From the NCBI RefSeq assembly GCF_000730165.1, contig NZ_CP022111.1, forward strand, positions 1,302,001 through 1,366,000: 64,000 nucleotides of DNA, read 5' to 3'. Each line of letters begins with the position of its first letter. The first letter of the stretch is position 1. Shown here piece by piece: positions 2,630-20,209 of this stretch. The DNA comes from Nitrospirillum viridazoti CBAmc (GTDB lineage: Bacteria; Pseudomonadota; Alphaproteobacteria; Azospirillales; Azospirillaceae). The translations under genes were made by a program, and so were the position numbers. Under the pieces are notes generated by a model, which was given only the letters and a program-made list of their open reading frames with translations, did not search any database and had not been told where the DNA came from.

Positions 2630-2631
2630 GG

Positions 2632-3393: not shown

Positions 3394-4521
3394 TCAGAGG
3401 TTGCGGGAAATCACCAGCTTCTGGATGTCGCTGGTGCCCTCGTAAATCTGGCAGACGCGCACATCGCGATAGATGCGTTCCACCGGGAAATCATCGACAT
3501 AGCCATAGCCGCCGAAGGTCTGGATGGCGTCGGAGCAGACACGCTCCGCCATTTCCGAGGCGAACAGCTTGGCCATGGAGGCCTCCTTCAGGCAGGGCTG
3601 GCCCGCCTGGCGCAGGCTGGCGGCATGCAGCATCAGCTGGCGCGCCGCCTCGATGCGGGTGGCCATGTCCGCCAGGCGGAAGGCCACGGCCTGATGCTCG
3701 ATGATGGCCACACCCATGCTGGTGCGCTCGCGCGCATAGTCACGGGCAGCATTGAACGCCGCCTGGGCCATGCCCACGGACTGGGCGGCGATGCCGATGC
3801 GCCCGCCCTCCAGATTGGCGAGCGCGATGCGATAGCCCTGGCCGGGCTCACCCAGCATAGCCTCATGCGGCACCCGGACGTTATCGAACACGATCTGTGC
3901 GGTGTCGCTGCAGCGCTGGCCCAGCTTGTGCTCCAGCCGCGCGACGGTATAGCCGGGGGTATCGGTGGGCACCAGGAAGGCGGAGATGCCCTTCTTGCCG
4001 GCGGCCGGATCGGTGACGGCGAAGACCAGGGCCACGCCGGCGTTTTGGCCGTTGGTGATGAACTGCTTGGCGCCGTTGATGACCCAATGGTCGCCATCCC
4101 GCACGGCGCGGGTCTTGAGCGCGGACGCGTCGGAGCCCGCCTGCGGTTCCGTCAGGCAGAAGGCGCCCAGCATCTGGCCCGACGCCATGGCGCGCAGGTA
4201 GCGTTCCTTCTGCGCCGGGGTGCCGAATTTCAGGATGGGCGCGCAGCCGACGGAGTTGTGCACGCTCATGATGGTGGAGATGGCGCCATCGCCGGCCGCG
4301 ATCTCCTCGATCGCCAGGACGTAGGACAGGATGTCAGTACCGGCCCCGCCCCATTCCTCAGGCACCAGCATGCCCATCAGGCCCAGCTCACCCATGGCCT
4401 TGAGCTCATCGGCCGGGAAGGCGCTGGTGCGGTCGCGTTCCGCCGCCCCGGGCGCCAGCCGTTCACGGGCGAAGGCGCGCGCCATGTCGCGCACCATGGC
4501 CTGTTCCTCGGTGATCAGCAT
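3394..4521 (-). CDS. Acyl-CoA dehydrogenase
   Basis: A 375-residue FAD enzyme for alpha,beta-dehydrogenation of acyl-CoA. The start at 4521 ([20 protein letters not shown]) is chosen over an upstream in-frame codon because it has a GAGGAGG site about 9 bases away and matches the family N-terminus. Family motifs are [20 protein letters not shown], then [10 protein letters not shown], the C-terminal QTFGGYGY, and [18 protein letters not shown], which holds the catalytic glutamate of EGTSDIQ. It leads the operon with etfB-etfA. It resembles short- or branched-chain dehydrogenases; chain-length specificity cannot be read by eye. Confidence 0.95.
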
Positions 4522-4616
4522 GGGGTGCGTTTCCTCCTCGCTTTTGGCCGGTGCTTTTGGGCCGGCTTGCCAGTTGCGGCCACAGTAGACATGATCGATC
4601 CAATCTGAAATGACCA

Positions 4617-4633
4617 ACCGGATCAAATCCGGT
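4617..4633. promoter_or_regulatory. Perfect inverted repeat between divergent acd and araC-type genes
   Basis: ACCGGAT-CAA-ATCCGGT is a perfect palindrome with 7-bp arms in the divergent intergenic region. It overlaps the earlier possible GTG start of the regulator at 4632, which argues for using the downstream GTG at 4668. It is a natural candidate operator for the AraC-type protein, controlling its own gene and the acyl-CoA dehydrogenase operon. AraC proteins more often bind direct repeats, so another factor remains possible. Confidence 0.45.
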
Positions 4634-4667
4634 GATCGTTTTTGTCAATCTGTCGGGATGTCGTCGC

Positions 4668-5690
4668 GTGGATAGGATCCTCCAGGACAAGAACAGCGTC
4701 GCGCCCTATTTCGTGGAGGCGGCGCTGGCCTGCGCCACCGCGCGGGGCCTGGACGCCGCCCCCCTGCGGCGCAAGGCCGGGCTGGAGGACGTGCCCGCCG
4801 GCGCCCGCGTACCGGTGACGACCTACGGCACGCTGCTGCGCCTGCTGGCCCAGGTGACGGATGACGAGTTCTTCGGCCTGGACACGCGGCGCATGAAGAT
4901 CGGCACCTTCTCCGTCATCTGCCTGCTGGCCCTGGGCGGCCGCGACCTGGGCCGGGCCTTGGACTTGGCCTGCCGTGGCTATAACAGCGTGTTCGACGGT
5001 ATGCGGGTGGGCGTCCGCCGCCAGGGCCGCCTGGCCTGCCTGGAAATCCGCGCCACGCCGCCCGGGCCGCCACCGGCACTGTTCGCGCAGGAAACGTTGA
5101 TGACCTACCTGCACGGTCTGGCCTGCTGGCTGGTGCGCCGGCGCATCCCCATAGCCGCCGCCGACGTCGCCCACCCCGCCCCGCCGCATGCGGAGGAGTA
5201 CAGGGTGCTCTACAGCTCCACCCTGCGCTTCGGCCAGGATGCCGCCCGCCTGTGGTTCGACGCCGCCCTGCTGGCCCTGCCGGTGGCGCAGGACGCGCGC
5301 ACGGCCGTCACCTTCCTGAACCGCGCACCGGAGAATTTCCTGGTACGCTACCGCAACCCGGACAGCTACGCCCGGCGCGTGGCCCAGATGCTGAGCCGCC
5401 AGCCGCCCGCCGCGTGGCCCGACTTCGACGCCGTGGCCCGCAGCTTGCGCTGTTCCCCCGCCACCCTGCGCCGCAGCCTGCGGCAGGAGGGGCGACCCTT
5501 CCAGGCCATCAAGGACGATTTGCGCCGCCGCGCGGCCGAGGCATCGCTGGCGGCGGGGACGGAACCCATCCCGGAGCTGGCGGCGCGGCTGGGCTTCGCC
5601 GAGACCAGCGCCTTCCACCGCGCCTTCCGCAAATGGACGGGCCAGGCCCCGGGCGCCTTCCGCGCGGCCAGCGGTGAACGCCTCAAATAA
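4668..5690 (+). CDS. AraC-family transcriptional regulator, divergent from acyl-CoA dehydrogenase operon
   Basis: About 340 residues. The N-terminal two-thirds matches the arabinose-binding-like domain of the OruR/ArgR group of AraC regulators (GLDAAPLRRKAGL near residue 20, then FFGLDTRRMKIGTFSVICLL). The C-terminal 90 residues form a double HTH: SLRCSPATLRRSLRQEGRPF, then AARLGFAETSAFHRAFRKWT and PGAFR. An earlier GTG start at 4632 is possible but overlaps a palindrome. It probably senses a fatty- or amino-acid-derived ligand and controls the divergent acd-etfBA genes. Its 3' end overlaps the convergent GGDEF-EAL gene by 8 bp. Confidence 0.85.
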   Translation: MDRILQDKNSVAPYFVEAALACATARGLDAAPLRRKAGLEDVPAGARVPVTTYGTLLRLLAQVTDDEFFGLDTRRMKIGTFSVICLLALGGRDLGRALDLACRGYNSVFDGMRVGVRRQGRLACLEIRATPPGPPPALFAQETLMTYLHGLACWLVRRRIPIAAADVAHPAPPHAEEYRVLYSSTLRFGQDAARLWFDAALLALPVAQDARTAVTFLNRAPENFLVRYRNPDSYARRVAQMLSRQPPAAWPDFDAVARSLRCSPATLRRSLRQEGRPFQAIKDDLRRRAAEASLAAGTEPIPELAARLGFAETSAFHRAFRKWTGQAPGAFRAASGERLK

Positions 5691-8226
5691 GCTTCGGGGC
5701 CGCCAGCAGCGCCTCGATCTCCAGGGCCGGCACCGGGCGGCTGATGAGGAAGCCCTGCATCTCGTCACAGCGCAGCAGGCGCAACAGCTTGGCCTGGTCC
5801 GCCGTCTCCACCCCCTCCGCCACCACCTTCAGGCCCAGGCTGTGGGCCAGCTGGATGATGGTGGACACGATGGTGGTGTCTTCCGATGTGGCGTCGATGC
5901 TGGAAACGAAGGCCCGGTCGATCTTCAGCGCCGTCAGCGGCAGGCGGGCGATATAGGCCAGCGAGGAATAGCCCGTGCCGAAATCGTCGATATAGACCTG
6001 CACGCCCATCTCGCGCAGGGCCGCGATCTTGGGGATGCAGGCCTGGATGTCACGCATCAGCACGCTTTCCGTGATCTCCAGATCCAGGCAGGCGCGCGCC
6101 GCCTCGTCCCGGTCCAGGCGGGCCCTCATCCCGTCCACGAAGTCATCGCGCGCCAGCTGCAGGGCGGAAACGTTGACGGCGATGCGCGGCGGCTTCAGCC
6201 CCTGGGCCCGCCAGCATTGGAAGTCCGTCACCGCCTGGCTCATGACCCAGTCGCCCATGTCGTGGATCAGGCCCAGCTCCTCCACCAGGGGGATGAACTC
6301 GGCCGGGCCCACGACGCCGCTCCCAGGCTCGTTCCAGCGGATCAGCGCCTCAAGGCCGGTGACGCGGCCGTCGCGCAGGTCGATCTTGGGTTGGTAGTGC
6401 AGCACATATTGCCGGTTTTCCAGCGCGGTGCGCAGCTGGGTTTCGCGCCGCAGGGCCTGGGCCAGGCGCTTGTTCATGCCCGTGGCGTAGAACAGCAGGC
6501 GCTCACGCGTGTCCTTGGCCTTCTTGAGCGCAATCTCCGCATGGGCAAACAGCGTTTCCCCATCCTCGGCATCGTCCGGAAACAAGGCCGCGCCCACGCG
6601 GGCGGACAGGCGCAGCTGCTCGCCGCCCGCCTGGATCACGGTGTCGAAGCAGGGAAGGATCCTCTCCCGCACCAGATGCGCGACGTCGCCCGCGCCCTTC
6701 ACCTCCGGCACCAGCATGCCGAAGCAGTCGGCGCCGACGCGGCCCACTGTGTCGGTGAGGGGGGCCGCGACGGACAGGCGGCGGGCCACCTCGCGCAGCA
6801 CCTCATCCCCGATGTCCAGGCCCAGGCTGTCGTTGATGCTGCGGAACCGCTCGACATCGACCAGGACCAAGGCCATCAGCCGCCGCTTGGCCCGCGCCCG
6901 CGCCACGTGCTGCGCCAGGCGGTCAGCGAACAGGCTGCGGTTCGCCAGGCCGGTCAGCCCGTCGTACAGCGCCAGGTAATCCAGGCGCAGGGCCTTGTGC
7001 AGGTGGTCCAGCGCGAAGGAGATGTTGCCCGCCATCTCGCGCAGCAGGGCCACCTCCTGCGCGTCGAAGCGGTCGGTCTCCATGGCCGACAGGACCATGA
7101 CGCCCACGGAGGCCCGATCCACCACCAGGGGCAGCACCAGGGTGGTCATCCCCTCGATACACTCCACCGCCGCCATCGGCACCTGATCCTGCAAGGCGGA
7201 GGCAACGATGGTGTCCAGAGGGTGGACCGTCCTTCCCGGCGCCAAATCCACCTGCATCGGCGGCAGCGCCGCCAAGCTCACGCCGTCGGCCGCCACGGGA
7301 ACCACCCGCCCCTCCTCGACCAGGCCGATCCACGCCTGGTGAAACTGGCCCTGGCCGGTGGCGATGCGGCAGGCGTCGGCGAACAGCTGGTGCTGGTCGT
7401 GCACGCGCACGATCAAGCCGTTGATGCCGCTGAGCACCGCCTGGGCGCGGGTCAGGCGGGCGATACGCTCCTCCAGCCGCAGGCGGTCGGTGACGTCACG
7501 GGCGATGCCCACCAGGCCGGTACCTTGGCCCTGTTCATCCACCACCGGCGCCACGGTGGCCGACACCCAGCGCTCCCCCAGCCGGCCCACTAAGTCCACC
7601 ACCGGCTTGCCGGTCTGCAGCACCATGCGCTCTTGCGCCTCGACGGCCTCGGCCCGAACCGGGTCCAGGAAATCGCCCACCCGCTTGCCCAGGCAGGTCA
7701 CGGGGCTTTCCACGCCCAGCTCACGGGCGGCGGCCCGGTTGACGCGCTGAAAGCGGTGGAGCCGGTCCTTGAAGAAGATGGCGTCCGGCATGCTGTCCAT
7801 CAGGTGATGCAGCAGCCGCTGCTCCTCCAGCAGGGCGCGGTGCAGCTCGCAATGCTCCACCGCCTTGTCCACCACCCGCCGCAGTTCCCTCGGATCCCAG
7901 GGCTTGGTGATGTAGCCGAAGATCTGGCCCTTGTTCACCGCCGCCACCACGGCGTCCAGGTCGGAATATCCGGTGAACAGGATGCGCGGCGCGTCCGACA
8001 GGCGGCTGGCGATGCCCAGGAATTCATGGCCGCTCAGGCCCGGCATGCGCTGGTCGGAAATGATGGCCGACAGGTCGGACTCATGTTCCAGCAGCTTCAG
8101 CGCCGCCTTGGGCGAGGTCTGCAGCAGGACGCGAAAGTCATCCTCGAGCAGATCTTCCATGGCCGCCAGCACCTGGGGCTCATCATCGACCACTAGGATG
8201 GTTTTCGCGTCCTTGCTCTGGGCCAT
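5683..8226 (-). CDS. Response regulator REC-PAS-GAF-GGDEF-EAL, probable c-di-GMP phosphodiesterase; last gene of chemosensory operon
   Basis: 847 residues. REC spans about 8-125 with phospho-acceptor D58 (IISDQRMPG) and conserved K108 (YITKPWD). PAS (about 140-255) and GAF (about 265-410) domains follow. The GGDEF domain (about 420-585) has its signature changed to GADCF (codons at 6722-6736) and lacks an obvious inhibitory RxxD site, so diguanylate cyclase activity is unlikely. The EAL domain (about 595-845) keeps EALIRW, AVNVSALQL, LEITES, DDFGTGYSSL, LKIDRAFV and VVAEGVET, the metal- and substrate-binding set, so hydrolysis of c-di-GMP is expected. It starts 2 bases after cheB, placing it as the output regulator of the system. 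Confidence 0.92.
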   Translation of the reverse strand: MAQSKDAKTILVVDDEPQVLAAMEDLLEDDFRVLLQTSPKAALKLLEHESDLSAIISDQRMPGLSGHEFLGIASRLSDAPRILFTGYSDLDAVVAAVNKGQIFGYITKPWDPRELRRVVDKAVEHCELHRALLEEQRLLHHLMDSMPDAIFFKDRLHRFQRVNRAAARELGVESPVTCLGKRVGDFLDPVRAEAVEAQERMVLQTGKPVVDLVGRLGERWVSATVAPVVDEQGQGTGLVGIARDVTDRLRLEERIARLTRAQAVLSGINGLIVRVHDQHQLFADACRIATGQGQFHQAWIGLVEEGRVVPVAADGVSLAALPPMQVDLAPGRTVHPLDTIVASALQDQVPMAAVECIEGMTTLVLPLVVDRASVGVMVLSAMETDRFDAQEVALLREMAGNISFALDHLHKALRLDYLALYDGLTGLANRSLFADRLAQHVARARAKRRLMALVLVDVERFRSINDSLGLDIGDEVLREVARRLSVAAPLTDTVGRVGADCFGMLVPEVKGAGDVAHLVRERILPCFDTVIQAGGEQLRLSARVGAALFPDDAEDGETLFAHAEIALKKAKDTRERLLFYATGMNKRLAQALRRETQLRTALENRQYVLHYQPKIDLRDGRVTGLEALIRWNEPGSGVVGPAEFIPLVEELGLIHDMGDWVMSQAVTDFQCWRAQGLKPPRIAVNVSALQLARDDFVDGMRARLDRDEAARACLDLEITESVLMRDIQACIPKIAALREMGVQVYIDDFGTGYSSLAYIARLPLTALKIDRAFVSSIDATSEDTTIVSTIIQLAHSLGLKVVAEGVETADQAKLLRLLRCDEMQGFLISRPVPALEIEALLAAPKLI

Positions 8227-8228
8227 GG

Positions 8229-9287
8229 CTACTTTTCCTCCGCCTTCCGCGCCAGCGTGAGCAGCCGGGCGGCGATGTCACCCGGCTTCAGCACGGCGGT
8301 GGCGCCGCCCAGGGCGATGGCTGCCCCGGGCATGCCATGGACGATGCTGCTTTCCTTGTCCTGCGCGAAGGTGACCGCGCCCGCGTCGCGCATCTCACGC
8401 AGTTCCATGGCGCCGTCCACGCCCATGCCGGACAGCAGCACGCCCACGGCGCGCGCCCCGTGCACCCGCGTGACCGAGCGGAAAAAGTGCGACACCGCCG
8501 GCCGGGCGCTATTCTCCGGCGCGCCATGATCCAGCTTGATGGTCCCGTCGGCCCCCAAGCCCATATGGGCGTTGTCGGGTGCCAGGTAGAAATGCCCAGG
8601 GCGGGGCACGTCGCCCGCCTTGGCCACCTGCACCGGCAGGGCGGACCCGCTGGCCAGCCAGTCGGCGAAACCGCCCACGAACCCGGGGGAGATGTGCTGC
8701 ACCGCCAGCAGCGGGATGGGAAAATCCGCCGGCAGGCCGGCCAGGATGGCCTGCAGGGCCACGGGGCCCCCGGTGGACGCGCCAATGGCGACGACAGCCG
8801 GGCGCGTGCCGCCTTGCAGGGTGGCTTCCGGCATGGGGCGGGCCACGGGTTCGCGGGGCAGCTTGGACGGGTTGGCCCAGCGCCGCACCACCTTGACCTC
8901 GGCCATCAGGCGCACCGTCTGCGCCAGCTCCGCCGCCTCTATGGCCTGGCGGGGATGGCCCACGCCCACCGGGCGGTGGACGAAGGCCACGGCGCCGGCG
9001 TCCAGGGCGCGGAAGGTCGCCGCCACATGGTCGCTCATGGTGCTGCTGACCACCACGATGGGGCAGGGCGTCTCTTCCATGATGCGGCGGGTGGCGGCCA
9101 GGCCGCCCAGGCGCGGCATGTGGATGTCCATCGTCACCACGTCGGGGCGATGGCGGGCCACCGCCTCCACCGCCTGCACACCGTCGACAGCGATGGCCAC
9201 CACCTCGATGTCGGGTTCTCCCGACAGGATGGAAACCAGATATTCACGCAGCGTGGGTGAGTCTTCAGCGACAACGACCCGGATCAT
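8229..9287 (-). CDS. cheB: CheB, receptor-glutamate methylesterase with receiver domain
   Basis: 352 residues, standard CheB length. The receiver (1-120) has acidic residues near the N-terminus and phospho-site D54 (VTMDIHMPR). The methylesterase domain (about 163-350) has the catalytic triad S171 (AIGASTGGP), H198 (VQHISPGF) and D290 (GMGVDGA). It demethylates the chemoreceptor and would counter CheR. It corresponds to WspF in Wsp systems, where loss locks signalling on. The start follows the cheA stop by 12 bases. Confidence 0.96.
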   Translation of the reverse strand: MIRVVVAEDSPTLREYLVSILSGEPDIEVVAIAVDGVQAVEAVARHRPDVVTMDIHMPRLGGLAATRRIMEETPCPIVVVSSTMSDHVAATFRALDAGAVAFVHRPVGVGHPRQAIEAAELAQTVRLMAEVKVVRRWANPSKLPREPVARPMPEATLQGGTRPAVVAIGASTGGPVALQAILAGLPADFPIPLLAVQHISPGFVGGFADWLASGSALPVQVAKAGDVPRPGHFYLAPDNAHMGLGADGTIKLDHGAPENSARPAVSHFFRSVTRVHGARAVGVLLSGMGVDGAMELREMRDAGAVTFAQDKESSIVHGMPGAAIALGGATAVLKPGDIAARLLTLARKAEEK

Positions 9288-9299
9288 TAGAGGCTTTCC

Positions 9300-11555
9300 T
9301 TAGACCAAATGACTGACGATTTGCAGCAGGTTGCCCTGGTCGAAGCTGTCCTTGACCAGGTAGGCGTTGGCACCGGCATCAATTCCCCGTTCCTTGTCCT
9401 CGCGTGAGCCCAGCGAGGTGATCAGCACCACGGGCAGCTCGGCCAGCTTGGGGGTGCCGCGCACCTTGGTGGTCAACTCGAAGCCGCCCATGCGCGGCAT
9501 TTCCACATCCGACACCAGAAGATCGAACTCCTCCCCGCCGGTCAGGGCGCCCCAGGCATCCACCCCGTCCACCGCGGTGCGCACCTGGTAGCCCGCCGCC
9601 TCCAGCAGGTTCTTGAACAGCGTACGTGCAGTGATGCTGTCTTCTGCAATCAATATGGACTTTTTTCGCGAGACGGCCACCATCGGTCGTGCGGTCGCGG
9701 GCGCCTGGGCCGCCCCCGCCAGCAGATCGGGGATGTTCAGGATCAGCGCCACCTCGCCCGTGGCCAGCACGCTGGCGCCGGTGACGTAGGGCGCCCGGGC
9801 CAGCTGCGGGCCCAGGCTTTTCATCAGCACTTCCTGCTCATCGCGCACGCGGTCGACGATGAAGGCGGTGGCCTGGCCGCCCCGGCTCAGCACCGCCACG
9901 GTATAGTGGCTGGGCGGCGCCTGGTTGCCGCGGGTGGGCGCCAGGCCCAGCACGTCGGCCAGCCGCACCAGGCCCAGGGTGCGGCCGTCCAGCACCACGG
10001 TCTCCCGGTTCTCCACCGTGGCGATGGCGCCCAGGGCCACGCGTGCCACCCGTTCCACCCCGCCGGTGGGCAGGATGAAGCAGGCGCCCTCCACCTCCAC
10101 CAACACCCCGCGGAAGCTGGCCAGCGTCACCGGCAGGCGGATACGGAAGACGGTGCCCAGGCCCACGGTGGATTCCACCGCCAGGCCGCCACCGAGCCTT
10201 TCCACCTTCTCCTGCACGATGGGCAGGCCCAGGCCCCGGCCGGACACGTCGGTCAGCAGGCCGCTGGTCGACAGGCCGGACCGGAAGGCCAGCGCGCGGG
10301 CCTCATCGTCATCCAGGGCCGCCGCGGCCTCCGCCGACATCAGGCCCTGTTCCGCCGCCGCGTGGCGCAGGCGCGTCACGTCGAAGCCGCCGCCGTCGTC
10401 GGCGATGGCGATTTCCGCCCGGCCCGCCTCCGTCTGGGCGACGGTGATGGCCAGCGTCCCACGCGGGGCCTTGCCCTTGGCCTCGCGCGCCTCCGGCGGC
10501 TCGATGCCGTGGGCGATGGCGTTGCGCACCAGATGCAGCAGCGCGTCCTTCATCTCTTCCTGGATGCGGCGGTCGATCTCCAGGTCCCCGCCCCGGATGA
10601 TCAGCTCCACCTCCTTCCCCTCGGCGCGGGCAAGGTCGCGCACCAGGGGGGCCATGGGGTCCAGCAGGGCGGACACCGGCACCATCAGCACCTGCTTGGC
10701 TTCATCCAGCAGGCTGTCCAGCATCTTGCCCAGGATGCGCAGATCCTGGCGGCCGGCATTGGCCAGCTGGGCGATGCGGCCGGACAGCCAGCGCAGGGTG
10801 TCGCCCTGCTGCTTCAGCAGGCGGGCGGCGGGGCTGTCCTCCGCCTCCTCCAGCCGGCGGCGGGCGCGCTCGTGCGAGCGCACGCGCTCCGCCACCTCCG
10901 ATGCCAGCCCGCCCAGGTCGGCCACCTGCCGGCCGGCCGCCAGGCGGGCGGACACCAGCTCCTCGGCATGGCGCAGCAGCGTGTCGACCTTGGAGGTGGC
11001 GATACGCAGGGTGGGCCGGCTGCCGACGCGCGGCGCGTCCGCGGGGGTATCGGCCGAGGGGGTATTGGCCGGCGACCCCTCTTCCGCCGGGGGCGGGGCC
11101 GGCGGCTCCGTCCGGGCGGCAGGCTCGGGCGGCACGGCGGCCCTGGCCACCGGCTCCCGCCCCTCGGCATAGGCTTCCAAGGCCGAGACCAGGGCGTCCT
11201 GGTCGGGGCCGGCCACCACGCTGCCGTCCAGCAGGCCGCGCACCCGGGCGTAGCCTTGGTGCAGCAGGTCCATGCCGCCGGGGGTCAACGCCAGCCTGCC
11301 CCCCTTCAAGGCGGCGAAGACGCTTTCCATGGCATGGCACACGGCCACCACCGCGCCCAGGTTCACCGCGCGGGCGGCGCCCTTCAGGGTGTGCACCTCG
11401 CGGAAGGTGGTCTCCACCAGCTCCTGCGCGCGCTCACGCGGGGGCGACTGCTCCAAGGCCAACAGCCCGGCGGCGATGGCGGAGAGGTGCTCCTCCGCCT
11501 CCACCTCGAACATGGCCAGCAGCCTTTTCAGGAGCTGATCGTCCGACTGGCTCAT
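9300..11555 (-). CDS. cheA: Hybrid CheA histidine kinase with C-terminal receiver (WspE/CheA3-like)
   Basis: 751 residues. The Hpt domain holds the phosphorylated histidine H55 in EVHTLKGAARAV. A Pro/Ala-rich linker (about 125-185) follows. The dimerisation and ATPase domains have the N-box HLVRNAIAHGIE, G1 ADDGGGFD and G2 GRGLGLPIV. A CheW-like P5 domain spans about 480-610. The final 120 residues are a receiver (LIAEDSITARTL, LLVSDVEMPRMGG, LITSLGS, YLVKDSF). No CheY-binding P2 domain is obvious. The fused receiver is typical of Wsp and of R. centenum CheA3, and can act as phosphate sink or relay. It starts 10 bases after the receptor gene. Confidence 0.95.
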   Translation of the reverse strand: MSQSDDQLLKRLLAMFEVEAEEHLSAIAAGLLALEQSPPRERAQELVETTFREVHTLKGAARAVNLGAVVAVCHAMESVFAALKGGRLALTPGGMDLLHQGYARVRGLLDGSVVAGPDQDALVSALEAYAEGREPVARAAVPPEPAARTEPPAPPPAEEGSPANTPSADTPADAPRVGSRPTLRIATSKVDTLLRHAEELVSARLAAGRQVADLGGLASEVAERVRSHERARRRLEEAEDSPAARLLKQQGDTLRWLSGRIAQLANAGRQDLRILGKMLDSLLDEAKQVLMVPVSALLDPMAPLVRDLARAEGKEVELIIRGGDLEIDRRIQEEMKDALLHLVRNAIAHGIEPPEAREAKGKAPRGTLAITVAQTEAGRAEIAIADDGGGFDVTRLRHAAAEQGLMSAEAAAALDDDEARALAFRSGLSTSGLLTDVSGRGLGLPIVQEKVERLGGGLAVESTVGLGTVFRIRLPVTLASFRGVLVEVEGACFILPTGGVERVARVALGAIATVENRETVVLDGRTLGLVRLADVLGLAPTRGNQAPPSHYTVAVLSRGGQATAFIVDRVRDEQEVLMKSLGPQLARAPYVTGASVLATGEVALILNIPDLLAGAAQAPATARPMVAVSRKKSILIAEDSITARTLFKNLLEAAGYQVRTAVDGVDAWGALTGGEEFDLLVSDVEMPRMGGFELTTKVRGTPKLAELPVVLITSLGSREDKERGIDAGANAYLVKDSFDQGNLLQIVSHLV

Positions 11556-11565
11556 GGGCCGGTCC

Positions 11566-13182
11566 TCAGGCCTGGTACTGGCCGGTGACGGTCTTCAGCT
11601 TGTGCCCCAGTTCGTTCAGGTTCTGGGCGGCGGTCTCGGCCTGTTTGGTGGCGTTCATGTTCTGCATGCTGGCCTGCTTGATGTTCTCCATGGCCAGCGC
11701 CACCTGGTCGATGCCCACCTGCTGCTGCTGGTTGGACGCGGCGATCTGGGTGGCGGCCTGGGTCGCCACGGCGATGCTCTGGGCCAGGCGATCGATGGCC
11801 TCGCCCGCCGCCACCGACTGCTTCACGCCGACGTCCACCGCCTTGCTGCCCTGTTCGGCGGCCAGCACGGCCGTGGCCGTCGCCTTCTGGATGTCGCCCA
11901 GGATGGAGCGCACCTGGGTGGTGGCCTGCTTGGACTGTTCGGCCAGGCTGCGCACCTCCTGCGCCACCACGACGAAGCCCTTGCCCTGCTCGCCAGCCCG
12001 CGCCGCCTCGATGGCGGCGTTGACGGCCAGCAGGTTGGACTGCTCGGCCAGGTCGTTCACCGTGGCCACGATCTCGCCGATGGCCTGACTCTGCTCGCTC
12101 AGCTGCATGACCGCCTCGGCGATGGCCATGATCTGCTCGCGCACCCTGGTGATGCCCTCGATGGACTGTTCCACCGCCTGCTTGCCGTTCTGGGAGACCT
12201 GGGCGGTGTTCTGCGCCGTCTGCGAGACGTACAGCGCCTTCTCGCTGGACACCTGGGAGGTCTTCTTCACCTCCTCCATCGTGGCGCTGGTCTGGGCCAA
12301 GGCGGTCGCCGTCTCGGCGGCGCTGGCCGCCACCTGGGCGGTGATGGTGACGATCTGGCTGGACGCCGTGCCCAGCACATTGGTGCCGTCGCGCAGGTCG
12401 CGCATCAGCTGGCGCAGGGTGCCGGCCATCGCATGGAAGGTGCGGCCCAGGCTGCCCACCTCGTCCGCCCGGTCACTGACCTCGATGGCGCCCGCCACCG
12501 TCAGGTCGCCAGCGCCGATGCGCTCCGCCGTGGTGGTGATGGTGCGCAGGGGGGTCGCGATGTTGCGGCCCAGGAACAGGCCGGCCACCACGACGAAGAC
12601 AGCCGCCACCAGGGTGCCGACGCCGATGACCAGCACGGTGCTTTCAGCGCTGGCCGCCGCCGCCGCCTCCCGCGCGCGCAGCAGCTCGCCCTCGCCCGCC
12701 TGCATGGTGGCGACGATGCGGCGGATGTCGTCCATCGACTGCTTGCCCCGGTCGCTCAGCACCACGGCCTTCGCCGGCTCAAATCCCTGCAGGCGGCGCA
12801 GGTCGATGGTTTCCTTCAGTTCCGCCGCCTTGTCCTTGATGGGGACGCGCAGGCGTTCCAGGTTCTGCTGCTGCACCGGGTTGTCCAAGGTCAGGGTCGC
12901 CACCGTCTGCAGCGCCTGCTCCATGGTGTTCTGGCCCTGCCGGTAGGGTTCCAGGTACCGGTCCTCACCCGTGATGAGATAGCCGCGCTGGCCCGTCTCC
13001 ATATCCTGCAGCGCGGTCAGCAGGCTCAGCAGCCGCGCCTGGACCTCATAGGAATGGGAGCGCAGCGTGGTGGTTTCCGTCAGCTGGCGGATGTTGCCGT
13101 ACGACGTGGCAGCCACCACGAGAAGAATGAACAGGACGCTGCACAAGCAGATCCAGATTTTCATTCCGACAGAGTACTTCAT
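11566..13182 (-). CDS. Methyl-accepting chemotaxis protein with CHASE3 sensor domain
   Basis: 538 residues from the ATG at 13182, chosen because the hydrophobic segment (about 8-28) starts just after it and a CGGGAG site precedes it. A periplasmic CHASE3-type helical domain follows ([20 protein letters not shown] is its signature). Then come a second membrane helix (about 190-212), HAMP, and the cytoplasmic signalling hairpin whose tip reads [38 protein letters not shown]. No C-terminal CheR-tethering pentapeptide is present. WspA uses a different periplasmic four-helix sensor. The gene sits between cheW and cheA and lacks its own obvious promoter. Confidence 0.94.
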
Positions 13183-13252
13183 GACCGGCGCTCCCGAGGG
13201 GCTGTGCGTGAACGGTGGACTGTTTCGAGGAGGGAGGGACGATGGCAGCGGC

Positions 13253-13903
13253 TTAGCCCGACCGGGCGACGGACCTGCCTTCGACGGTGAGATCCGGATC
13301 GGCCAGCAGGCGCTGGGCATCCAGCAGGGCGAGATGGGGCGGCACGACGCCGACGAGGTAATGGCGCTGGCGCCCGGTGACGACGCTGGGCGGCGCCTGC
13401 ACCTTGGCGCGGGGCATGCGGGAGACGCCGACGATGGATGTCACCAGCAGGCCCAGGGCGCCCCCGCTTTGGCCGGGCGCCTGCGCCTGGCCCAGGACAA
13501 CCACGCGGCGCAGCTCAGAGGATGGAACCGCGCCCAGATCCAGCAGACGGCCCAGGTGGACCAGCGGCAGCACCTGGCCGCGCACGGTGGTCAGGCCGGC
13601 GATGAAGGACGGCGCCTTGGGCACGGTCGTCAGCCTGTTGAGGGCCAGCACCTCCGTCACCGCCGCCGTCTCGAAGCCATAACGCTCCTGCCCCACCGTG
13701 AATTCCATGTATTCCAGGATGTCGCCGTCATCCTCCAGTACGGGGGGCTTGGCCAGTTCCAGCCCGCGCCGGTGCAGGATGCGGCGCGTCGTCTCCTCAT
13801 CCGGGACCCAGCCGCGCTCCAGCGCCGCCGCCCAGCCGGCCAGGCGGCGGTGGATGTCTTCCCAGTCGATGCCCCGCCCTTCGGCGGCCCGGTCCATGGC
13901 CAT
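13253..13903 (-). CDS. cheW: CheW-like coupling protein with N-terminal extension (WspD position)
   Basis: 216 residues, longer than a minimal CheW. The first 60 residues ([39 protein letters not shown]) form a helical extension seen in WspD-type CheW proteins. The CheW fold follows: [21 protein letters not shown], then [20 protein letters not shown] and [12 protein letters not shown]. It should link receptor to CheA. The start is 3 bases from the cheR stop. There are two CheW genes flanking cheR, exactly as wspB and wspD flank wspC. Confidence 0.92.
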
Positions 13904-13906
13904 GCC

Positions 13907-15400
13907 TTAGAACTCCCCCCCCATGGCCTGGCCCAGCGCCGCATGGGCGTGGGCGGCCACGTCCATCAGCCGACCCACCGTCATGCCTTCCAGATCCGGC
14001 AGGATTTCCTCCGGCCGGTGCCCCTCCAGCAGGCCCATGATGTTGCGGTAGTGCTTGCGCGCGTCCCGCATGCGGCCCTCGTTGCGGGCTAGGTTGGCCA
14101 TGGCCAGGTGCGTGGCGATGGATTGCGGCGCCAGGAACAGCGCGCGCTGCAGCGAGGCGGCAGCGGCCGCAGCATCGCCCCGTTCCTGCTGGATCATGGC
14201 CAGCAGATGGTGCGCCTCAGCGCTGACCCGGTTGTGGTCCAGCACTCCCTGGCACCAGTGCGCCGCCTCCGCCAGTCGGCCCTGGTTGGCGTAGCTGCGC
14301 GCCAGCAGCAGCATGGCGGCGTCATCCGCCGGCGCGAAGGCCAGCCGCGCCTCCAGCTGTTCCACCGCCTCGCCATAGCGCCCCTGGTCATAGAGGGAGC
14401 GGCAATGGTCGAGGCTGGGCACAGGGGGCTTGACGGCGACAGTGGGCGGGGCCGCCACCGGCAAGGGCGCCGGTTCGGGCACCGGGGCCAGCGGCAGTAT
14501 GGAGAAATGCTGGGTGACGGGCGCAGGGGGGGCGGCATGCGCCGGCAGCGGCAGCTTGCGGTAGACGGTGGCGCCCTCGAAGGGCACGAAGGTAAGGGGG
14601 GCGAACATGGGCGGGGCGCCGTCGACGGAACTGGGCAGCAGCCAGCCGTTATCCACCAGCGACCGCGCCAACCGCCGCACCACCCGGTTCGCCTGCGCGC
14701 CGTTGAAGTACATCAGCACGTTTCGGCACAGGATGACGTCCATGGCGTTGGTGTTGCTTTCCAGCGCCGGATAGGGGTCGTCCACCAGGTTGTGGTAGGA
14801 GAAGGTGACCATGCGGGCGATGTCGGGGCTGATGCGGTAGCGCCCGCCCGGCAGTGACGTGAAATAGCGGGCCCGCAGGGCCGGATCCACGCCGCGGAAG
14901 GACCATTCGCCGTAGACCCCCTCGGCCGCCCGCCGCAGGAAGCGGGGGTTCACGTCGGTGGCCAGCAGAGTGACGGTCCAGTCCGCCCGGTCGGGCAGCA
15001 GCGTGTCCAGCAGCATGGCCAGGCTGTACGCCTCCTCCCCCGTGCAGCAGGCCGCACTCCAGATGCGCAGGGACAGCAATCCCTTCGCCCGCCGCTCGGC
15101 GATCAGGTCGGGTAGGATCTTGCGGCCTAGGGCCTCGAAACTTTTGGGTTCGCGGAAGAAATAGGTTTCCCCTACGGTCAGCTGGCCGGCCAGGGCCTCC
15201 AGCTGCGCCCGGTCGGGGCCGCCCGCCGTCAACCAGTGCTGTACGGCCGCCAGGGTGCTGGGATAGCCCAATTCCACCGCCGCCCGCTCCAGGCCGCGTT
15301 CCATGTCGGTCCAACGATCGGCCGGGAAGTAAAGCCCGATGCTGGCGCTTAGCCGGTCCGACATGGCGGCAAGCAGGTTGTCCGGCAGGGTACGGTTCAT
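13907..15400 (-). CDS. cheR: CheR-type receptor methyltransferase with C-terminal TPR repeats (WspC-like)
   Basis: 497 residues. The N-terminal half is CheR: GETYFFREPKSFEAL, the SAM-binding WSAACCTGEEAYSLAMLLD, TLLATDVNPRFLRRA, and DVILCRNVLMYF. A Pro/Ala linker (about 280-325) leads to TPR units from about 330 (YDQGRYGEAVEQLEARLAF, LLARSYANQGRLAEAAHW, RALFLAPQSIATHLAMANLA). CheR with TPRs is the hallmark of WspC/FrzF-like methyltransferases. It methylates receptor glutamates. Its start overlaps the upstream cheW stop as ATGA. Confidence 0.95.
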   Translation of the reverse strand: MNRTLPDNLLAAMSDRLSASIGLYFPADRWTDMERGLERAAVELGYPSTLAAVQHWLTAGGPDRAQLEALAGQLTVGETYFFREPKSFEALGRKILPDLIAERRAKGLLSLRIWSAACCTGEEAYSLAMLLDTLLPDRADWTVTLLATDVNPRFLRRAAEGVYGEWSFRGVDPALRARYFTSLPGGRYRISPDIARMVTFSYHNLVDDPYPALESNTNAMDVILCRNVLMYFNGAQANRVVRRLARSLVDNGWLLPSSVDGAPPMFAPLTFVPFEGATVYRKLPLPAHAAPPAPVTQHFSILPLAPVPEPAPLPVAAPPTVAVKPPVPSLDHCRSLYDQGRYGEAVEQLEARLAFAPADDAAMLLLARSYANQGRLAEAAHWCQGVLDHNRVSAEAHHLLAMIQQERGDAAAAAASLQRALFLAPQSIATHLAMANLARNEGRMRDARKHYRNIMGLLEGHRPEEILPDLEGMTVGRLMDVAAHAHAALGQAMGGEF

Positions 15401-15921
15401 CCGCCGCCCCCTTCGGACCCACCCTTGACCGCCAGCGCCCGGTCCAGCTGCTCCTCCTCCGCCGCCGACAGGAAACGGTCCAGATCGTGGATCAGCAACA
15501 GGCCATCCGACAGCCGCACCACGCCGACAATGGCGTCATCCGCCCCGGGGACCACGCCCTGGGCCGACACCCAGTCGACGGGCGCGCCCGCCACCGTGCC
15601 CACCACGCTGTCGACCAGCAGGACGACGGTGCGGCGCAGCCCGCGCGCCACGATCATGTGGTCGCTCAGCGACAGGGGGCGGCTGTCCAGGCCGAAGCGG
15701 CGGCGCACGTCCATGACCGGCACCACCTGGCCCTGCAGGTTGATGACCCCGCGCACCAGGCCCGGCGCGCCCGGCAGGGGCGTCACCGCCACGGCCCGCA
15801 CCGCCCGCTCCACCATGGCCAGCGGCAGGCCATAGGCCTGGCCGTCGAGGTCGAAGCGCAGAAGGAAGGCGCTGGCGCCTTCCGCCGTGGCGGAGCCCGA
15901 GGTCAAGCCCCGCTCAATCAT
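15397..15921 (-). CDS. cheW: CheW coupling protein (WspB position)
   Basis: 174 residues from the ATG at 15921, which overlaps the 3' end of the upstream kinase gene by 8 bases; a GTG at 15939 is the alternative. CheW pattern: FLLRFDLDGQAYGLPLAMVE, VTPLPGAPGLVRGVINLQGQ, VVPVMDVRRRFGL, and a C-terminal SDGLLLIHDLDRFLS. It has no extension, unlike the second cheW. The expected role is to bridge the CHASE3 receptor to the hybrid CheA. Confidence 0.94.
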   Translation of the reverse strand: MIERGLTSGSATAEGASAFLLRFDLDGQAYGLPLAMVERAVRAVAVTPLPGAPGLVRGVINLQGQVVPVMDVRRRFGLDSRPLSLSDHMIVARGLRRTVVLLVDSVVGTVAGAPVDWVSAQGVVPGADDAIVGVVRLSDGLLLIHDLDRFLSAAEEEQLDRALAVKGGSEGGGG

Positions 15922-17986
15922 GGGCGTCCCCTTCCCCACCCGGCAACCCCACCGTGGCGGCGGTCAGCAGCAGCTTTTCCAGATCGACGGGCTTGCTCAG
16001 GAAGATCTCCAGGCCCACGGCGCGGCAGCGTTCCCGCTCCTCCGCCGTGACCCCGGCGGTCAGCACCACCAGGGGCGGCAGCGGCCGGTCGGGCGTACGC
16101 TGCAGGGCGCGAATCCGGGTCGTGGCCTCCAGCCCGCCCATGACCGGCATATGCATGTCCATGAACACCAGGTCGTAGGTGCCCGTGTCCACCGCCTGCA
16201 CGGCGGCGGCGCCGTTGTCCACGATATCCACCTCATGCCCCACGCCGCGCAGGATGGTGGACACCAGGATCTGGGTGGACCGGTCATCTTCCACCAGCAG
16301 GATGCGGCGGCCACCCCTGGCGCGGCCCGACGGCGCTTGGGGCCCGGCTCCGGTGAGCGGAGGCAGCGCCGCCGCCTCTTCCGCCGACACGGCCAGCGGT
16401 AGTTCAAACCAGAAGCGGCTGCCCTGACCCGGCACGCTCTCCACCCCGATGCGCCCGTCCATGTGCTCCACCAGGCGGCGGCAGATGGCCAGGCCCAGGC
16501 CCGTGCCGCCGAAACGGCGGGCCGTGGTCTCATCCACCTGGCTGAATTCCTCGAACAGGCCGGACAGCCGCTCCGGCGGGATGCCGATGCCGGTGTCGGC
16601 CACGCACACCCGCAAGCGCGACGGCGCCCCCCCCAGGCCAGCCGGCGGCGGCAGCACCTCCGCCGTCAGGCTGACGCTCCCGGCCGGGGTGAACTTCACG
16701 GCGTTGGTCAGCAGGTTCAGCACCACCTGGCGCAGCCGGGTGGGATCGCCCATGATCTTGGCGGGCAGGGCGCTGGTCACGGCGGAGTTGAACGCCAGGC
16801 CCTTGCCGCTGGCCGAGGGGCGCACCAGGGCGATGCAGTCGTCCACCAGGGTGCGGAAATCCAGGGGCAGGTTTTCCAGGGTCAGGCGCCCGGCCTCGAT
16901 CTTGGACAGGTCCAGAATGTCGTCCAGCAGGCCCAGCAGGGTGCGCCCCGCCTCCGCCTGCAAGGTCAGCAGGCGATGCCATTCGCCCGGGCTGACGCCA
17001 CCGCGCAGCAGCAATTCGGAAAAGCCGATGACCCCGGTCAGCGGCGTGCGCAGCTCATGCGCCACAGTGGCGAGATAGCGCGACTTGGCCTCGTTGGCCA
17101 TGTCGGCGGCCTTGCGCGCGGCCAGCAGGTCGCGGGCCGTGGCCGCCAGATCCTCCGTCCGCTCCGCCACGCGGCGTTCCAGCGTGGCGTGCGCCTCGCT
17201 CAAGGCCTGTTCCGCCTCCTTGGCGGCGGTGATGTCGCGGGCGATGGTGACGAGGCCCTCGGTCGCCCCCTCGCCGTCCTTGAAGGTGGAACGCACGACC
17301 GAGTACCAGCGACGGCGCGATGGCGCCTCCGCCGACGCCGGGGCGTCCTGCTGGATGTCGGTGACCGTGATGCCGGCCTCCAGGGCCGCCTGGTCCGCCG
17401 CCTCGCGCCGCGCCGCTCCCTCGGCCCCGATCTCCTGGTCCGTGCGGCCGATCAGGTCGTCGGGGTTGTCCACGCCCAGGGCCTTGGCATGGGCCACGTT
17501 GCTGCGCAGGTAGCGCAGGTTCTTGTCCTTGAAGGCGATGGGATCCGGCACGCTGTTCATCAGGTGCGACAGCAGCAGCCGCTCCTCCGCCAGGGCGCGG
17601 CGCACGGCGCAATGTTCCGCCGCCTCGCGAATCAGGCGGCCCAGCCGGTCGGGCGTCCATGGCTTGGGCAGATAGCCGAAAATCTGGCCGGCGTTGACGG
17701 CGGCGCCCAGGGCGTCGATGTCGGTGTAGCCGGTGATCAGCACACGGGTGGCATCCGACAGCTCGCGCGCCCAGCGCAGGAATTCATGGCCGGCCATGCC
17801 CGGCATGCGCTGGTCGGAAATGATGACCAGGGGGGCGATGTCGTCGCCCTCCAGCATGGCCCGGGCCTTCAGCGGCGACGTGCTGGTCAGGACATAGAAC
17901 TCGTCCTCCAGCGCGTCGGTGACCGCCATCAGCACCTCCGGCTCGTCGTCGACCACCATGACGGTGGGCAGCTCCTGGGCGATCAT
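15914..17986 (-). CDS. Hybrid histidine kinase REC-PAS-HisKA-HATPase-REC
   Basis: 690 residues. The N-terminal receiver (about 8-125) has MVVDDEPEVL, IISDQRMPGMAGHEFL and YLPKPW. PAS (about 140-265) is followed by a coiled coil (about 265-310), then HisKA with the phosphorylated histidine in TVAHELRTPLTGVIGF. The ATPase domain has LLTNAVKFTPAG, ADTGIGIPPERL and FGGTGLGLAICR. The C-terminal receiver has LLVEDDRSTQIL and LVFMDMHMPVMGG. No membrane segment is seen, so it is cytosolic. The first two domains closely resemble those of the GGDEF-EAL protein at the operon end. Its ATG overlaps the upstream kinase stop as TAATG. Confidence 0.94.
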   Translation of the reverse strand: MIAQELPTVMVVDDEPEVLMAVTDALEDEFYVLTSTSPLKARAMLEGDDIAPLVIISDQRMPGMAGHEFLRWARELSDATRVLITGYTDIDALGAAVNAGQIFGYLPKPWTPDRLGRLIREAAEHCAVRRALAEERLLLSHLMNSVPDPIAFKDKNLRYLRSNVAHAKALGVDNPDDLIGRTDQEIGAEGAARREAADQAALEAGITVTDIQQDAPASAEAPSRRRWYSVVRSTFKDGEGATEGLVTIARDITAAKEAEQALSEAHATLERRVAERTEDLAATARDLLAARKAADMANEAKSRYLATVAHELRTPLTGVIGFSELLLRGGVSPGEWHRLLTLQAEAGRTLLGLLDDILDLSKIEAGRLTLENLPLDFRTLVDDCIALVRPSASGKGLAFNSAVTSALPAKIMGDPTRLRQVVLNLLTNAVKFTPAGSVSLTAEVLPPPAGLGGAPSRLRVCVADTGIGIPPERLSGLFEEFSQVDETTARRFGGTGLGLAICRRLVEHMDGRIGVESVPGQGSRFWFELPLAVSAEEAAALPPLTGAGPQAPSGRARGGRRILLVEDDRSTQILVSTILRGVGHEVDIVDNGAAAVQAVDTGTYDLVFMDMHMPVMGGLEATTRIRALQRTPDRPLPPLVVLTAGVTAEERERCRAVGLEIFLSKPVDLEKLLLTAATVGLPGGEGDAHD

Positions 17987-19740
17987 TATGCTTCCCCCGG
18001 CATCGCATGCGCCGTTTGCGCAGGATCTGGCAGGGTCGGCGCGTCGGCGGACGCCCCGTCCATGGGGATCTCGATCACCACCTCTGTACCCCGCCCCTCA
18101 TCACTATGGAATTCCAACCGCCCCCGGTGGCGCTGGATGATGCTATAGGAAATGGAAAGGCCAAGGCCAGTCCCTGACCCCACCGGCTTGGTGGTGAAGA
18201 ACGGCTCACAGATGCGGTCGCGGATGGCAGCGGGGATGCCGTGGCCGGTATCCCGCACCGACAGGCGGAACATGGCCCCGTTCCGGCCCGTCGCCAGCGT
18301 GATGGTGCCCGTCCCCTCGATGGCGTCGATGGCGTTGCCCACCACGTTCATCAGCACCTGGTTCAGCGGCCCCGGCTGGCAGGTGATGCGCTTGGGTCCC
18401 TCATACCGCCGCTCAACCGTGATTCGGTCCGACAGCTTGTGCTGCAGCAGGGTCAGCACCGATTCCAGGCTGTCCTCGATCTCCACCTCCTTCACCTCCG
18501 CCTCGTCCAGGCGGGAGAAGGTGCGCAACTTCACCACCAGGTTTTCCACCCGGTCGATGCCCAGGCGCATGGCGTCCAGCCGCTGGCGCATCTTGTCCAG
18601 ATCGCGGGCGCCCTTGTCGGACAGGTGGCCCTGCACCTCCGGCGTGATGGTCTCCAGGCAGCGCAGCACGGTGCCCAGATGGTTGCCGACGAAGGCCAGC
18701 GGATTGTTCAGCTCATGCGCGATGCCGGCCACCAGCGCGCCCAGCGAGGCCATCTTGGCCGCCTGCACCAGCTGCGCCTGGGTGCCCTGCAGCTCCTGGT
18801 AGGCCTCCGCCAGCTCGGCGTGCGACCGCTCCAGCGCTTCCGTCATGGCGGCGCGTTCCTGGGCGATGCGCCGTTCGTCGCGCGTGCGCTCCAGTTCCAG
18901 TTCCTTGTCCCGGAATTCGCCGCTGATGCGCAGGTTCTCCTCATGCAGGAACTTGCGGCGCAGCAGGGCGCGGATGCGGGCCTTCAGGATTTCGCTCTCG
19001 CCGGCCTTGCCCACGAAGTCGTCGGCCCCCGCCTCCAGGCCGCGCATCATGTCCTCCTTGTTGTCGCGGGAGGTCAGGATGATGATCTGGAACAGGCGGT
19101 CATGCTGGCGGCGCATCCGGTCCAGGTGCTGGCACAGCTCCGTGCCGCTCATTTCCGGCATGACCAGATCGACCACGACGCAGTCGAACTTCTCCTCCGC
19201 CATGCGGGCCAGCGCCTCGCGCCCGCTGGAAACGCCGATCACCTCGTGCCCGTCCTCCTGCAACTGGGCGGTGATGAAGAACAGGTAGGTGGGGCTGTCG
19301 TCCACCACCAGCAGGCGGCTCTGGCGGATGTCCACCGGCGCCTGGGCCGCCGCCGCCGTGGTCTTGCGCAGCAGGGCGCCCACCCGGCTCAGCAGGATGT
19401 CGGTGTCGACCGACTTGGGCACATAGGCGTCGGCGCCGCTGTCGTAGCCCTGGCGCTCCCGGTCGGCGGCGTGGCTGTCGGTCAGCATCAGGACCGACAG
19501 GCCGCGCGTGCGCATGTCCATGCGCACCCGGCGCACGAACTCGTCTCCGTTCATGCGCGGCAGATGGTAGTCGACGATGGCCAGGTCGGGCATTTCCCGG
19601 CCCAATTGCTCAAGCGCGCTTTCGGCGTCGCCACAAACGGTGACGGACCATCCCCGGCGCTCCAGCATCATCTGCAATTGCAGGGCCTGCGTCGGCGAAT
19701 CCTCGACCAGCAGGACGCGGTGGGTGGACCCGCTCGTCAT
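17986..19740 (-). CDS. Soluble histidine kinase with two N-terminal receivers (CheS3-like)
   Basis: 584 residues from the ATG at 19740, whose next residues read straight into the first receiver; upstream in-frame codons add no domain. REC1 (about 8-122) has LLVEDSPTQALQ, LAIVDYHLPRMNG and YVPKSVD. REC2 (about 145-262) has LLVVDDSPTYLF, CVVVDLVMPEMSG and FVGKAGE. A coiled coil (about 265-340) leads to the kinase: GIAHELNNPLAFVGNHLG, NVVGNAIDAIEG, VRDTGHGIP and GTGLGLSISYSIIQRH. REC-REC-kinase is the recalled architecture of R. centenum CheS3, which exchanges phosphate with CheA3. It is the first gene of the nine-gene operon. Confidence 0.92.
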   Translation of the reverse strand: MTSGSTHRVLLVEDSPTQALQLQMMLERRGWSVTVCGDAESALEQLGREMPDLAIVDYHLPRMNGDEFVRRVRMDMRTRGLSVLMLTDSHAADRERQGYDSGADAYVPKSVDTDILLSRVGALLRKTTAAAAQAPVDIRQSRLLVVDDSPTYLFFITAQLQEDGHEVIGVSSGREALARMAEEKFDCVVVDLVMPEMSGTELCQHLDRMRRQHDRLFQIIILTSRDNKEDMMRGLEAGADDFVGKAGESEILKARIRALLRRKFLHEENLRISGEFRDKELELERTRDERRIAQERAAMTEALERSHAELAEAYQELQGTQAQLVQAAKMASLGALVAGIAHELNNPLAFVGNHLGTVLRCLETITPEVQGHLSDKGARDLDKMRQRLDAMRLGIDRVENLVVKLRTFSRLDEAEVKEVEIEDSLESVLTLLQHKLSDRITVERRYEGPKRITCQPGPLNQVLMNVVGNAIDAIEGTGTITLATGRNGAMFRLSVRDTGHGIPAAIRDRICEPFFTTKPVGSGTGLGLSISYSIIQRHRGRLEFHSDEGRGTEVVIEIPMDGASADAPTLPDPAQTAHAMPGEA

Positions 19741-20209
19741 AGGCCGGCCCAGCCCGCCGCCATCCGCGCGGCGCACCCTCGCTGATCCGTCATTTCCGTC
19801 TCCAGGCCGGAACCCACCACGCACTGCCTTTTCCGGGACGTCATCCATCCCATATTGGTTAATGGGGAAAGTGCCGGTTTCTCAAACCGTTTTCCACCAT
19901 TCCCTGATGAAGGGGAAACCGTGGCGCGTGGCCGCCCCCCTGTCGACTGATGCGTCATGGGTACCCCGTGCGGGAGAGCAGGGGGCCGGGCGTGCGGGCA
20001 CCCCTGAGATCACCGGAAATCATAAGCGGGGGCGTCCGTCCGTGCGCGGGCTCATCCGCATAGATTCAACCGGGGAACGCGGCACATCCCCGTGGATTGC
20101 CCTCTGGCCCCCAGCGCCAGCCCGCCCTCTCATAATTGCGCGATGGGCATCCCATATGGGACGGTGGACCTGAAACCGGCATGCCCAGACCAAGGACTAG
20201 AGCGCACCC
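19741..20209. promoter_or_regulatory. 469-bp divergent intergenic region, promoters of chemosensory operon and oligopeptidase gene
   Basis: No convincing gene lies here. Two symmetric elements stand out. CGGTTT-CTC-AAACCG (19875-19889) sits about 135 bp upstream of the first kinase start, and TCCCATATGGGA (20150-20161) is a perfect 12-bp palindrome about 50 bp upstream of the oligopeptidase start. An imperfect partner, TCCCATATTGG, occurs near 19848. Either could be an operator. No strong -35/-10 pair is obvious for either direction. Confidence 0.35.

Follow-up and report, generated by a model that had tools for sequence, protein, structure and literature searches.

How is a chemosensory operon wired when two hybrid kinases and an enzyme of cyclic di-GMP (c-di-GMP) turnover stand in one run with CheA? 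The question is raised by nine minus-strand genes (5683–19848) in a 64,000-nucleotide stretch of the Nitrospirillum viridazoti CBAmc genome (NZ_CP022111.1, positions 1,302,001 to 1,366,000), referred to below as the window. We lean, with modest confidence, toward an operon of the alternative cellular function (ACF) type that consists of two modules plus an effector, with Che3-like kinase-to-kinase wiring that would control c-di-GMP breakdown. Judged by CheA phylogeny, the core CheW-CheR(TPR)-CheW-MCP-CheA(REC)-CheB belongs to a multi-phylum CheA lineage. The two kinases ahead of it, HK1 and HK2, are a pair known elsewhere from che3-type operons, where it stands behind cheB, and the last gene encodes a predicted phosphodiesterase.

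A preliminary description had listed nine minus-strand genes, their domains and gaps of at most 70 bp, all of which the open reading frames (ORFs), Pfam and the gene junctions bear out (at the junctions, genes overlap by up to 26 bp or lie up to 70 bp apart). The extent it gave needs a small correction: its end, 19740, falls on an ATG within the first gene, whose ORF opens at 19848. The gap before the receptor is 67 bp if the receptor starts at 13185; the likely start is the ATG at residue 47 of the ORF, at 13182. The parts are as follows.

17986..19848, minus strand: HK1, REC-REC-HisKA-HATPase, 620 aa (or from ATG 19740); acceptors D93 and D227, phospho-His H378
18934..19743, minus strand: HK1 receiver pair, as used for sequence identities
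18019..18858, minus strand: HK1 kinase core, as used for sequence identities
15914..17986, minus strand: HK2, REC-PAS-HisKA-HATPase-REC, 690 aa; acceptors D58 and D610, phospho-His H310
17207..17986, minus strand: HK2 REC-PAS, shared with the GGDEF-EAL protein
15397..15939, minus strand: CheW 1, 180 aa (Pfam)
13907..15400, minus strand: CheR-TPR methyltransferase, 497 aa (Pfam)
13253..13903, minus strand: CheW 2, 216 aa (Pfam)
11566..13182, minus strand: CHASE3-HAMP-MCP chemoreceptor (Pfam)
9300..11555, minus strand: hybrid CheA, Hpt (H55)-HATPase-CheW-REC (D683), 751 aa (Pfam, residues)
8229..9287, minus strand: CheB methylesterase with receiver (D54, Arg105), 352 aa (Pfam, residues)
5683..8226, minus strand: REC-PAS-GAF-GGDEF-EAL response regulator, 847 aa, predicted c-di-GMP phosphodiesterase (Pfam, motifs)
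6721..6735, minus strand: degenerate GGDEF site, GADCF (motif inspection)
5734..6438, minus strand: EAL domain, inspected catalytic motif positions intact (EAL motif 6343–6351; Pfam, motifs)

Three phospho-His residues (CheA H55, HK1 H378, HK2 H310) thus face seven receivers, all with their Asp. Clusters with a CheR-TPR gene are of ACF type, with multidomain receivers that carry histidine kinase, GGDEF, EAL, PAS or GAF domains (Munoz-Martinez 2012, PMC3447774). In this operon, too, a CheR-TPR gene is clustered with multidomain response regulators, and its gene content supports assignment to the non-flagellar ACF type. In that survey, a kinase was present in about 40% of the regulators of CheR-TPR clusters, and a receiver combined with both GGDEF and EAL occurred in two cases; compared with its clusters, the present operon has two kinases before the core and a GGDEF-EAL enzyme after it.

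That enzyme suggests what the operon puts out. It has GADCF at the GGDEF site and no Arg at the I-site; the inspected EAL positions are kept (E of EAL, N of VN, ITES, DDFGTG, K, AEG and Q), which we take to be the catalytic motif. Loss of the fourth-position Glu of GGDEF abolishes cyclase activity. In a comparison of loci L044–L141 and L172–L174 (partial row L055 set aside), this Glu was lost in 19 of 22 EAL-bearing rows, all 22 of which kept the EAL positions, and it was kept in 13/13 GGDEF rows without an aligned EAL half, including WspR of L172–L174. Because the GGDEF site is degenerate and the EAL motif intact, the predicted output is c-di-GMP breakdown. The preliminary description had missed the degenerate motif and taken the enzyme for a counterpart of WspR; we predict a phosphodiesterase and not a WspR-like cyclase.

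We turned to CheA for the ancestry of the core. Named genomes were scanned by CheA alignment, and of 556 loci so confirmed we used the best 80. Being chosen by their CheA, these named loci are not a random sample; they come from many phyla, and several of their CheAs are 47%–51% identical to the operon's. Identity is 33% to WspE, 32%–39% to Azospirillaceae che3-type CheAs and 36% to CheA3 of Rhodospirillum centenum. The best match in a plasmid search by CheA was from Niveispirillum (51%), with the other 39 listed matches (of 3979 records) at 31%–33%. A first, quick tree was built on P4-P5 only, and later, careful trees on P4-P5-REC with chosen rows. From the 55-row tree we dropped the divergent L105, L141, L137, L139, L134, L121, L110, L090 and L096, and to it we added the CheAs of five of the six f26/f32 genomes (leaving out that of L206). 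In the P4-P5-REC trees, the operon CheA groups with those of its genus and of Niveispirillum (100/99), and this group nests inside the multi-phylum lineage (99/96 and 99/97 in two trees). Separate from it are the che3-type clade (100/100 for ten Azospirillaceae rows and again with five f26/f32 rows) and the WspE clade (100/100; WspE recognized by gene order in L172–L174). Approximately unbiased (AU) tests gave p-values of 0.00045 (59 rows) and 0.00037 (55 rows) for joining the operon CheA with Wsp, and of 0.697 (P4-P5 only), 0.118 (59 rows) and 0.0104 (55 rows, the best-sampled test) for joining it with che3. On these comparisons the operon CheA is firmly placed outside Wsp and probably outside Che3. 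Separately, the CheA of L074, a contig of a metagenome-assembled genome (MAG) titled Klebsiella pneumoniae, groups with Polaromonas (99/85), and the contig is probably mis-binned.

Gene order points the same way for Wsp. Among the 80 named loci, 28 without an upstream CheR match were set aside; of the remaining 52, 48 have the order CheW-CheR-CheW-MCP-CheA. Since these 48 relatives share it, a receptor between CheW 2 and CheA is the usual layout and has not "moved," as the preliminary description put it from comparison with wsp; in R. centenum che3, too, the receptor sits between cheR and cheA. Orthology to Wsp, whose genes that description had matched to the core, was rejected by the CheA AU tests, by gene order (the receptor gene is not first) and by the GADCF-plus-EAL output; the receptor is 27%–31% identical to that of Wsp. 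The receptor's signaling arms are 140 aa each (HAMP end to tip, and tip to C-terminal end), a length that fits class 40H, this fit being by length only; its C terminus ends GQYQA, with no CheR-type pentapeptide tail seen. In Geobacter Esn, a class 40H receptor and CheA are tied to a cyclase (PMC5585712), and about 35% of CheA homologs bear a receiver (PMC10782961). In a Geobacter MAG (L106, 1200–5375), a 1391 aa CheB-CheR-PAS-HisKA-HATPase-REC fusion lies just upstream of the core.

The kinase module has its own kin. The HK1 receiver pair is 54%–60% identical to Azospirillaceae REC-REC hybrid kinases and 39%–45% to L127 and the f26/f32 HK1-like proteins compared; the HK1 kinase core is 59%–60% identical to beta/gammaproteobacterial L127 and L065, 49%–55% to f26/f32 HK1-like proteins and 23%–26% to Azospirillaceae REC-REC kinases. 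As core and receiver pair have different closest relatives, we read HK1 as the product of one domain exchange. The Azospirillaceae kinase with the similar receiver pair is 963–991 aa long (REC-REC-HisKA-HATPase-REC-Hpt in L054 and L194) and occurs in g5, where it stands behind cheB of che3-type clusters (L054, L057), and in g12, the genus that includes Niveispirillum. Among g12 genomes with the operon-type CheA, its gene is the first match past cheB in L220 and adjoins cheB in the opposite direction in L221; in L050, L051, L222 and L223 the operon has no such neighbor. A second REC-REC protein, 39% identical to the HK1 receivers, was seen in three g12 genomes (G017:C2:805130, G110:C111:6796, G108:C45:496439).

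HK2 and the GGDEF-EAL protein share their REC-PAS front (47% identical; 58% for REC alone). When 398 Pseudomonadota genomes were searched with REC-PAS (E 1e-38), six matching genomes came up besides the operon's own. In all six, the REC-PAS gene directly follows an HK1-like gene and the pair stands behind cheA-cheB; the CheAs of five were tested, and all five fell on the che3 side. An HK1-kinase search (E 1e-55) returned the same six plus one weaker 41% match (G381); the two 398-genome samples appear identical, and L127 and L065 come from the CheA-chosen set. Two named cases are the Pseudoroseomonas cervicalis plasmid pL11-C and Methylobacterium bullatum, to whose HK1-like protein that of f26 is 78% identical. 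Pfam, applied to five proteins of these genomes (two HK1-like, three HK2-like), passed one HK1 receiver only in L208, whose HK2-like protein has no C-terminal REC; this REC is present in L205 and L209. A REC-PAS-GAF-GGDEF-EAL gene comes immediately after the closest HK1-type kinase in both L127 and L065. The homologies support a Che3-side relationship for the kinase module, and because HK1 and REC-PAS proteins travel together, we propose HK1 as the kinase of REC-PAS.

From these parts we infer a phosphate flow, an effect direction, a cue and a controlled behavior. A cue would act on the CHASE3 receptor, with gain set by CheR-TPR and CheB. CheA would pass phosphate to CheB, to the receiver that it carries itself (a sink) and to at least one of the two HK1 receivers, and the last of these transfers would change HK1 activity; this first stage is modeled on CheA3-CheS3 of R. 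centenum. HK1 would then phosphorylate or dephosphorylate the paralogous REC-PAS receivers of HK2 and the phosphodiesterase, and the array would thereby control c-di-GMP breakdown with an output sign opposite to that of Wsp. The operon may serve in biofilm or cyst formation.

The run is present in all six other genomes of the genus, and thus in all seven, which argues that it is not a chance arrangement; all nine genes are present in five of the six. Its dN/dS (nonsynonymous to synonymous substitution rates) is 0.07–0.40 against four of those six. One relative, G004, keeps eight genes and misses the GGDEF-EAL gene; a search of its whole genome for the enzyme (E 1e-100) found only a 43% paralog. 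Because the more divergent G005 has the gene, its absence from G004 is probably a loss. In G004, a 346 aa ORF abuts cheB in the place of the AraC regulator found downstream of our operon (L047, 4825–6920). HK1 of G001 is split over two frames (L046, 15550–17344) in a 730-contig assembly, a real break or an assembly error.

Several observations weigh against the wiring that we favor. G004 keeps the array without the enzyme, so the phosphodiesterase is not the sole output. Three EAL-bearing relatives (L068, L125, L129) keep the Glu of GGDEF, and some degenerate GGDEF domains may retain activity. For the second receiver of HK2, the operon encodes no separate Hpt partner. In the CheB receiver, Arg105 replaces the usual Lys (Arg in 6/6 genus relatives and 2/2 Niveispirillum rows; Arg in 23 and Lys in 40 of 69 CheB rows of named loci; Lys in 10/10 che3-type rows), so control of CheB by phosphorylation may differ. 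Finally, the separation of the operon CheA from Che3 varies with sampling: the two earlier AU tests did not reject a single clade, and the P4-P5 tree holding operon and che3 rows together outscored the free tree by 17.4 log-likelihood units.

This last point favors the best-surviving alternative, in which the operon represents R. centenum Che3 in this genus, has gained the enzyme and controls encystment or exopolysaccharide. Its core order resembles that of che3-type clusters, its HK1 receiver pair is close to the REC-REC kinases behind cheB in L054 and L057, and Azospirillum amazonense has che clusters named Che1–Che3, those named Che2 and Che3 being given there as of unknown function (PMC3169532). 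The distribution of CheA types also fits. Among 82 family genomes (E 1e-70), 13 have the operon-type CheA (7/7 of the genus and 6/11 of g12), 48 have only the 32%–39% type, 21 have neither and none has both; all ten treed of the 48 fell in the che3 clade. The exclusion (Fisher p = 2e-6, uncorrected for relatedness) suggests one shared role, and no more. We nevertheless find orthology doubtful, given the separate CheA lineage in the best-sampled test, a kinase that is HisKA and not HWE, and the lack of a single-domain CheY3 in the operon or either flanking gene. A plain CheS3 identity for HK1 is ruled out: HK1 is HisKA with D93 and D227, and CheS3 is HWE with Ala in REC2. The match to CheS3/CheA3 proposed in the preliminary description therefore holds for the hybrid CheA and the REC-REC hybrid kinase as architectures, and fails for the kinase type and for the second receiver, whose Asp is present.

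We think it unlikely, too, that CheA directly phosphorylates the receiver of the GGDEF-EAL enzyme, as WspE does WspR, with the hybrid kinases as side branches. The gene set without the kinases does equal that of Wsp, the enzyme gene comes straight after cheB in the way that wspR comes after wspF, and in L071, L074 and L099 a REC-GAF-GGDEF-EAL gene sits behind cheB, which makes direct transfer from CheA likely in those three. Here, however, the enzyme's receiver is 58% identical to that of HK2, a type that travels with HK1 in other genomes, and the operon CheA lies outside the WspE clade. A flagellar or motility pathway is highly improbable: the chemotaxis CheA of Pseudomonas aeruginosa does act with a c-di-GMP phosphodiesterase (PMC3861689), but the nine genes include no cheY, cheD or cheZ, CheR-TPR with multidomain regulators is an ACF mark (PMC3447774), and the operon CheA stands apart from the genome's three other CheAs and from ChpA-type CheAs (quick tree, SH-aLRT branch support 91–94, not starred). 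Nor does it join the F-type CheAs (class labels assigned in the present analysis), so the non-flagellar nature proposed in the preliminary description stands.

Around the operon, the neighbors are unrelated to it: a divergent M3 peptidase upstream (20210–22273, plus strand) and the convergent AraC regulator downstream (4632–5690, plus strand). Farther downstream, an acyl-CoA dehydrogenase and both electron transfer flavoprotein subunits are encoded at 1679–4626. At 23888–26337, a histidine-specific methyltransferase gene adjoins one for an FGE-sulfatase/DinB protein, a pair that we take to be ergothioneine egtD-egtB. G+C falls to 0.567 at 52001–54000, with the other 2-kb bins at 0.64–0.73. The host genome (7.38 Mb, 4 contigs) has three more che clusters by CheW search. 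In NCBIfam, the best 25 rows for each protein contained only three models above cut-off, two for CheB subfamilies and one for the GGDEF domain.

REC-(PAS/GAF)-GGDEF-EAL proteins were found in 15 of the 80 loci, with the cyclase half predicted dead in 12 of the 15 and the phosphodiesterase half predicted intact. A wider reading, which we put forward tentatively, is that of a multi-phylum lineage apart from Wsp, often ending in such an enzyme, that would lower c-di-GMP upon CheA activity and into which a Che3-side kinase pair was inserted in this genus. What is known of chemosensory control over c-di-GMP comes mostly from Wsp, and Wsp makes this messenger; the lineage to which the operon and its relatives point is a separate one and would probably break it down. 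If so, these arrays would be the inverse of Wsp, and here one kinase cascade would control another before c-di-GMP is touched. With core, kinase pair, receiver pair and kinase core differing in kin, parts appear to move between chemosensory lineages. G004, missing the phosphodiesterase alone, offers a natural comparison.

How does the operon compare with known systems? The preliminary description knew of no system joining both hybrid kinases to a c-di-GMP enzyme. We likewise found no account of this combination among the top matches in the open-licence literature, and the portions seen of PMC2890560, PMC6391922, PMC9756655 and PMC5845226 do not describe the operon. Similar sets exist all the same. 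The betaproteobacterial MAG FW602_bin.24 (L127) has cheA-cheB, REC-HK, REC-REC-HK and REC-PAS-GAF-GGDEF-EAL genes, then a second such gene. Like the operon, it holds the set in one run (kinase core 60%, REC-PAS 53% identical); unlike the operon, it has the kinases behind cheB, a first kinase without PAS and second REC, and the extra GGDEF-EAL gene (genes upstream of cheA are off the contig). L065 and L062 have cheA-cheB, REC-HK or REC-GAF-HK, then REC-PAS-GAF-GGDEF-EAL. A GGDEF-EAL match lies within 8 kb in 21 of the 59 loci with more than 3.5 kb downstream, and 6 of the 21 also have a kinase match. Given these sets, the combination is uncommon but not unique.

The che3-type operons with HK1-HK2 (P. 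cervicalis pL11-C, M. bullatum, the six genomes) share the order CheR, CheW, MCP, CheA, CheB, REC-REC-HK, REC-PAS-HK, and on pL11-C both CheWs are annotated, as in our operon. They differ in having the kinases behind cheB and a CheA that is 33%–38% identical and of the che3 clade (five tested), and the stretches examined had no GGDEF-EAL match.

R. centenum Che3 (CheA3-CheS3-CheY3) shares the cheR-MCP-cheA-cheB order, the hybrid CheA and a REC-REC hybrid kinase with the operon; unlike it, CheS3 comes after cheB and is a PAS-HWE kinase with a REC2 without Asp, and CheY3 is present. We matched no c-di-GMP enzyme near that locus, nor, in the present search, its two CheWs (named in PMC3868531); its proteins bear the six published residues (CheA H49 and D663; CheS3 D54, A191 and H453; CheY3 D64). 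CheA3 passes phosphate to its own receiver, which serves as a sink, and to REC1 of CheS3, which dampens CheS3 (PMC3868531).

With Wsp the operon has in common a CheW pair, CheR-TPR, hybrid CheA, CheB and a c-di-GMP regulator; Wsp differs in its first-placed receptor gene, its REC-GGDEF cyclase without EAL and its CheA clade. In Burkholderia Wsp, a REC-kinase, WspH, replaces WspR (PMC8552884). Set beside these systems, the operon is probably an unusual variant of the ACF type, an assembly of its own from parts seen in other bacteria.

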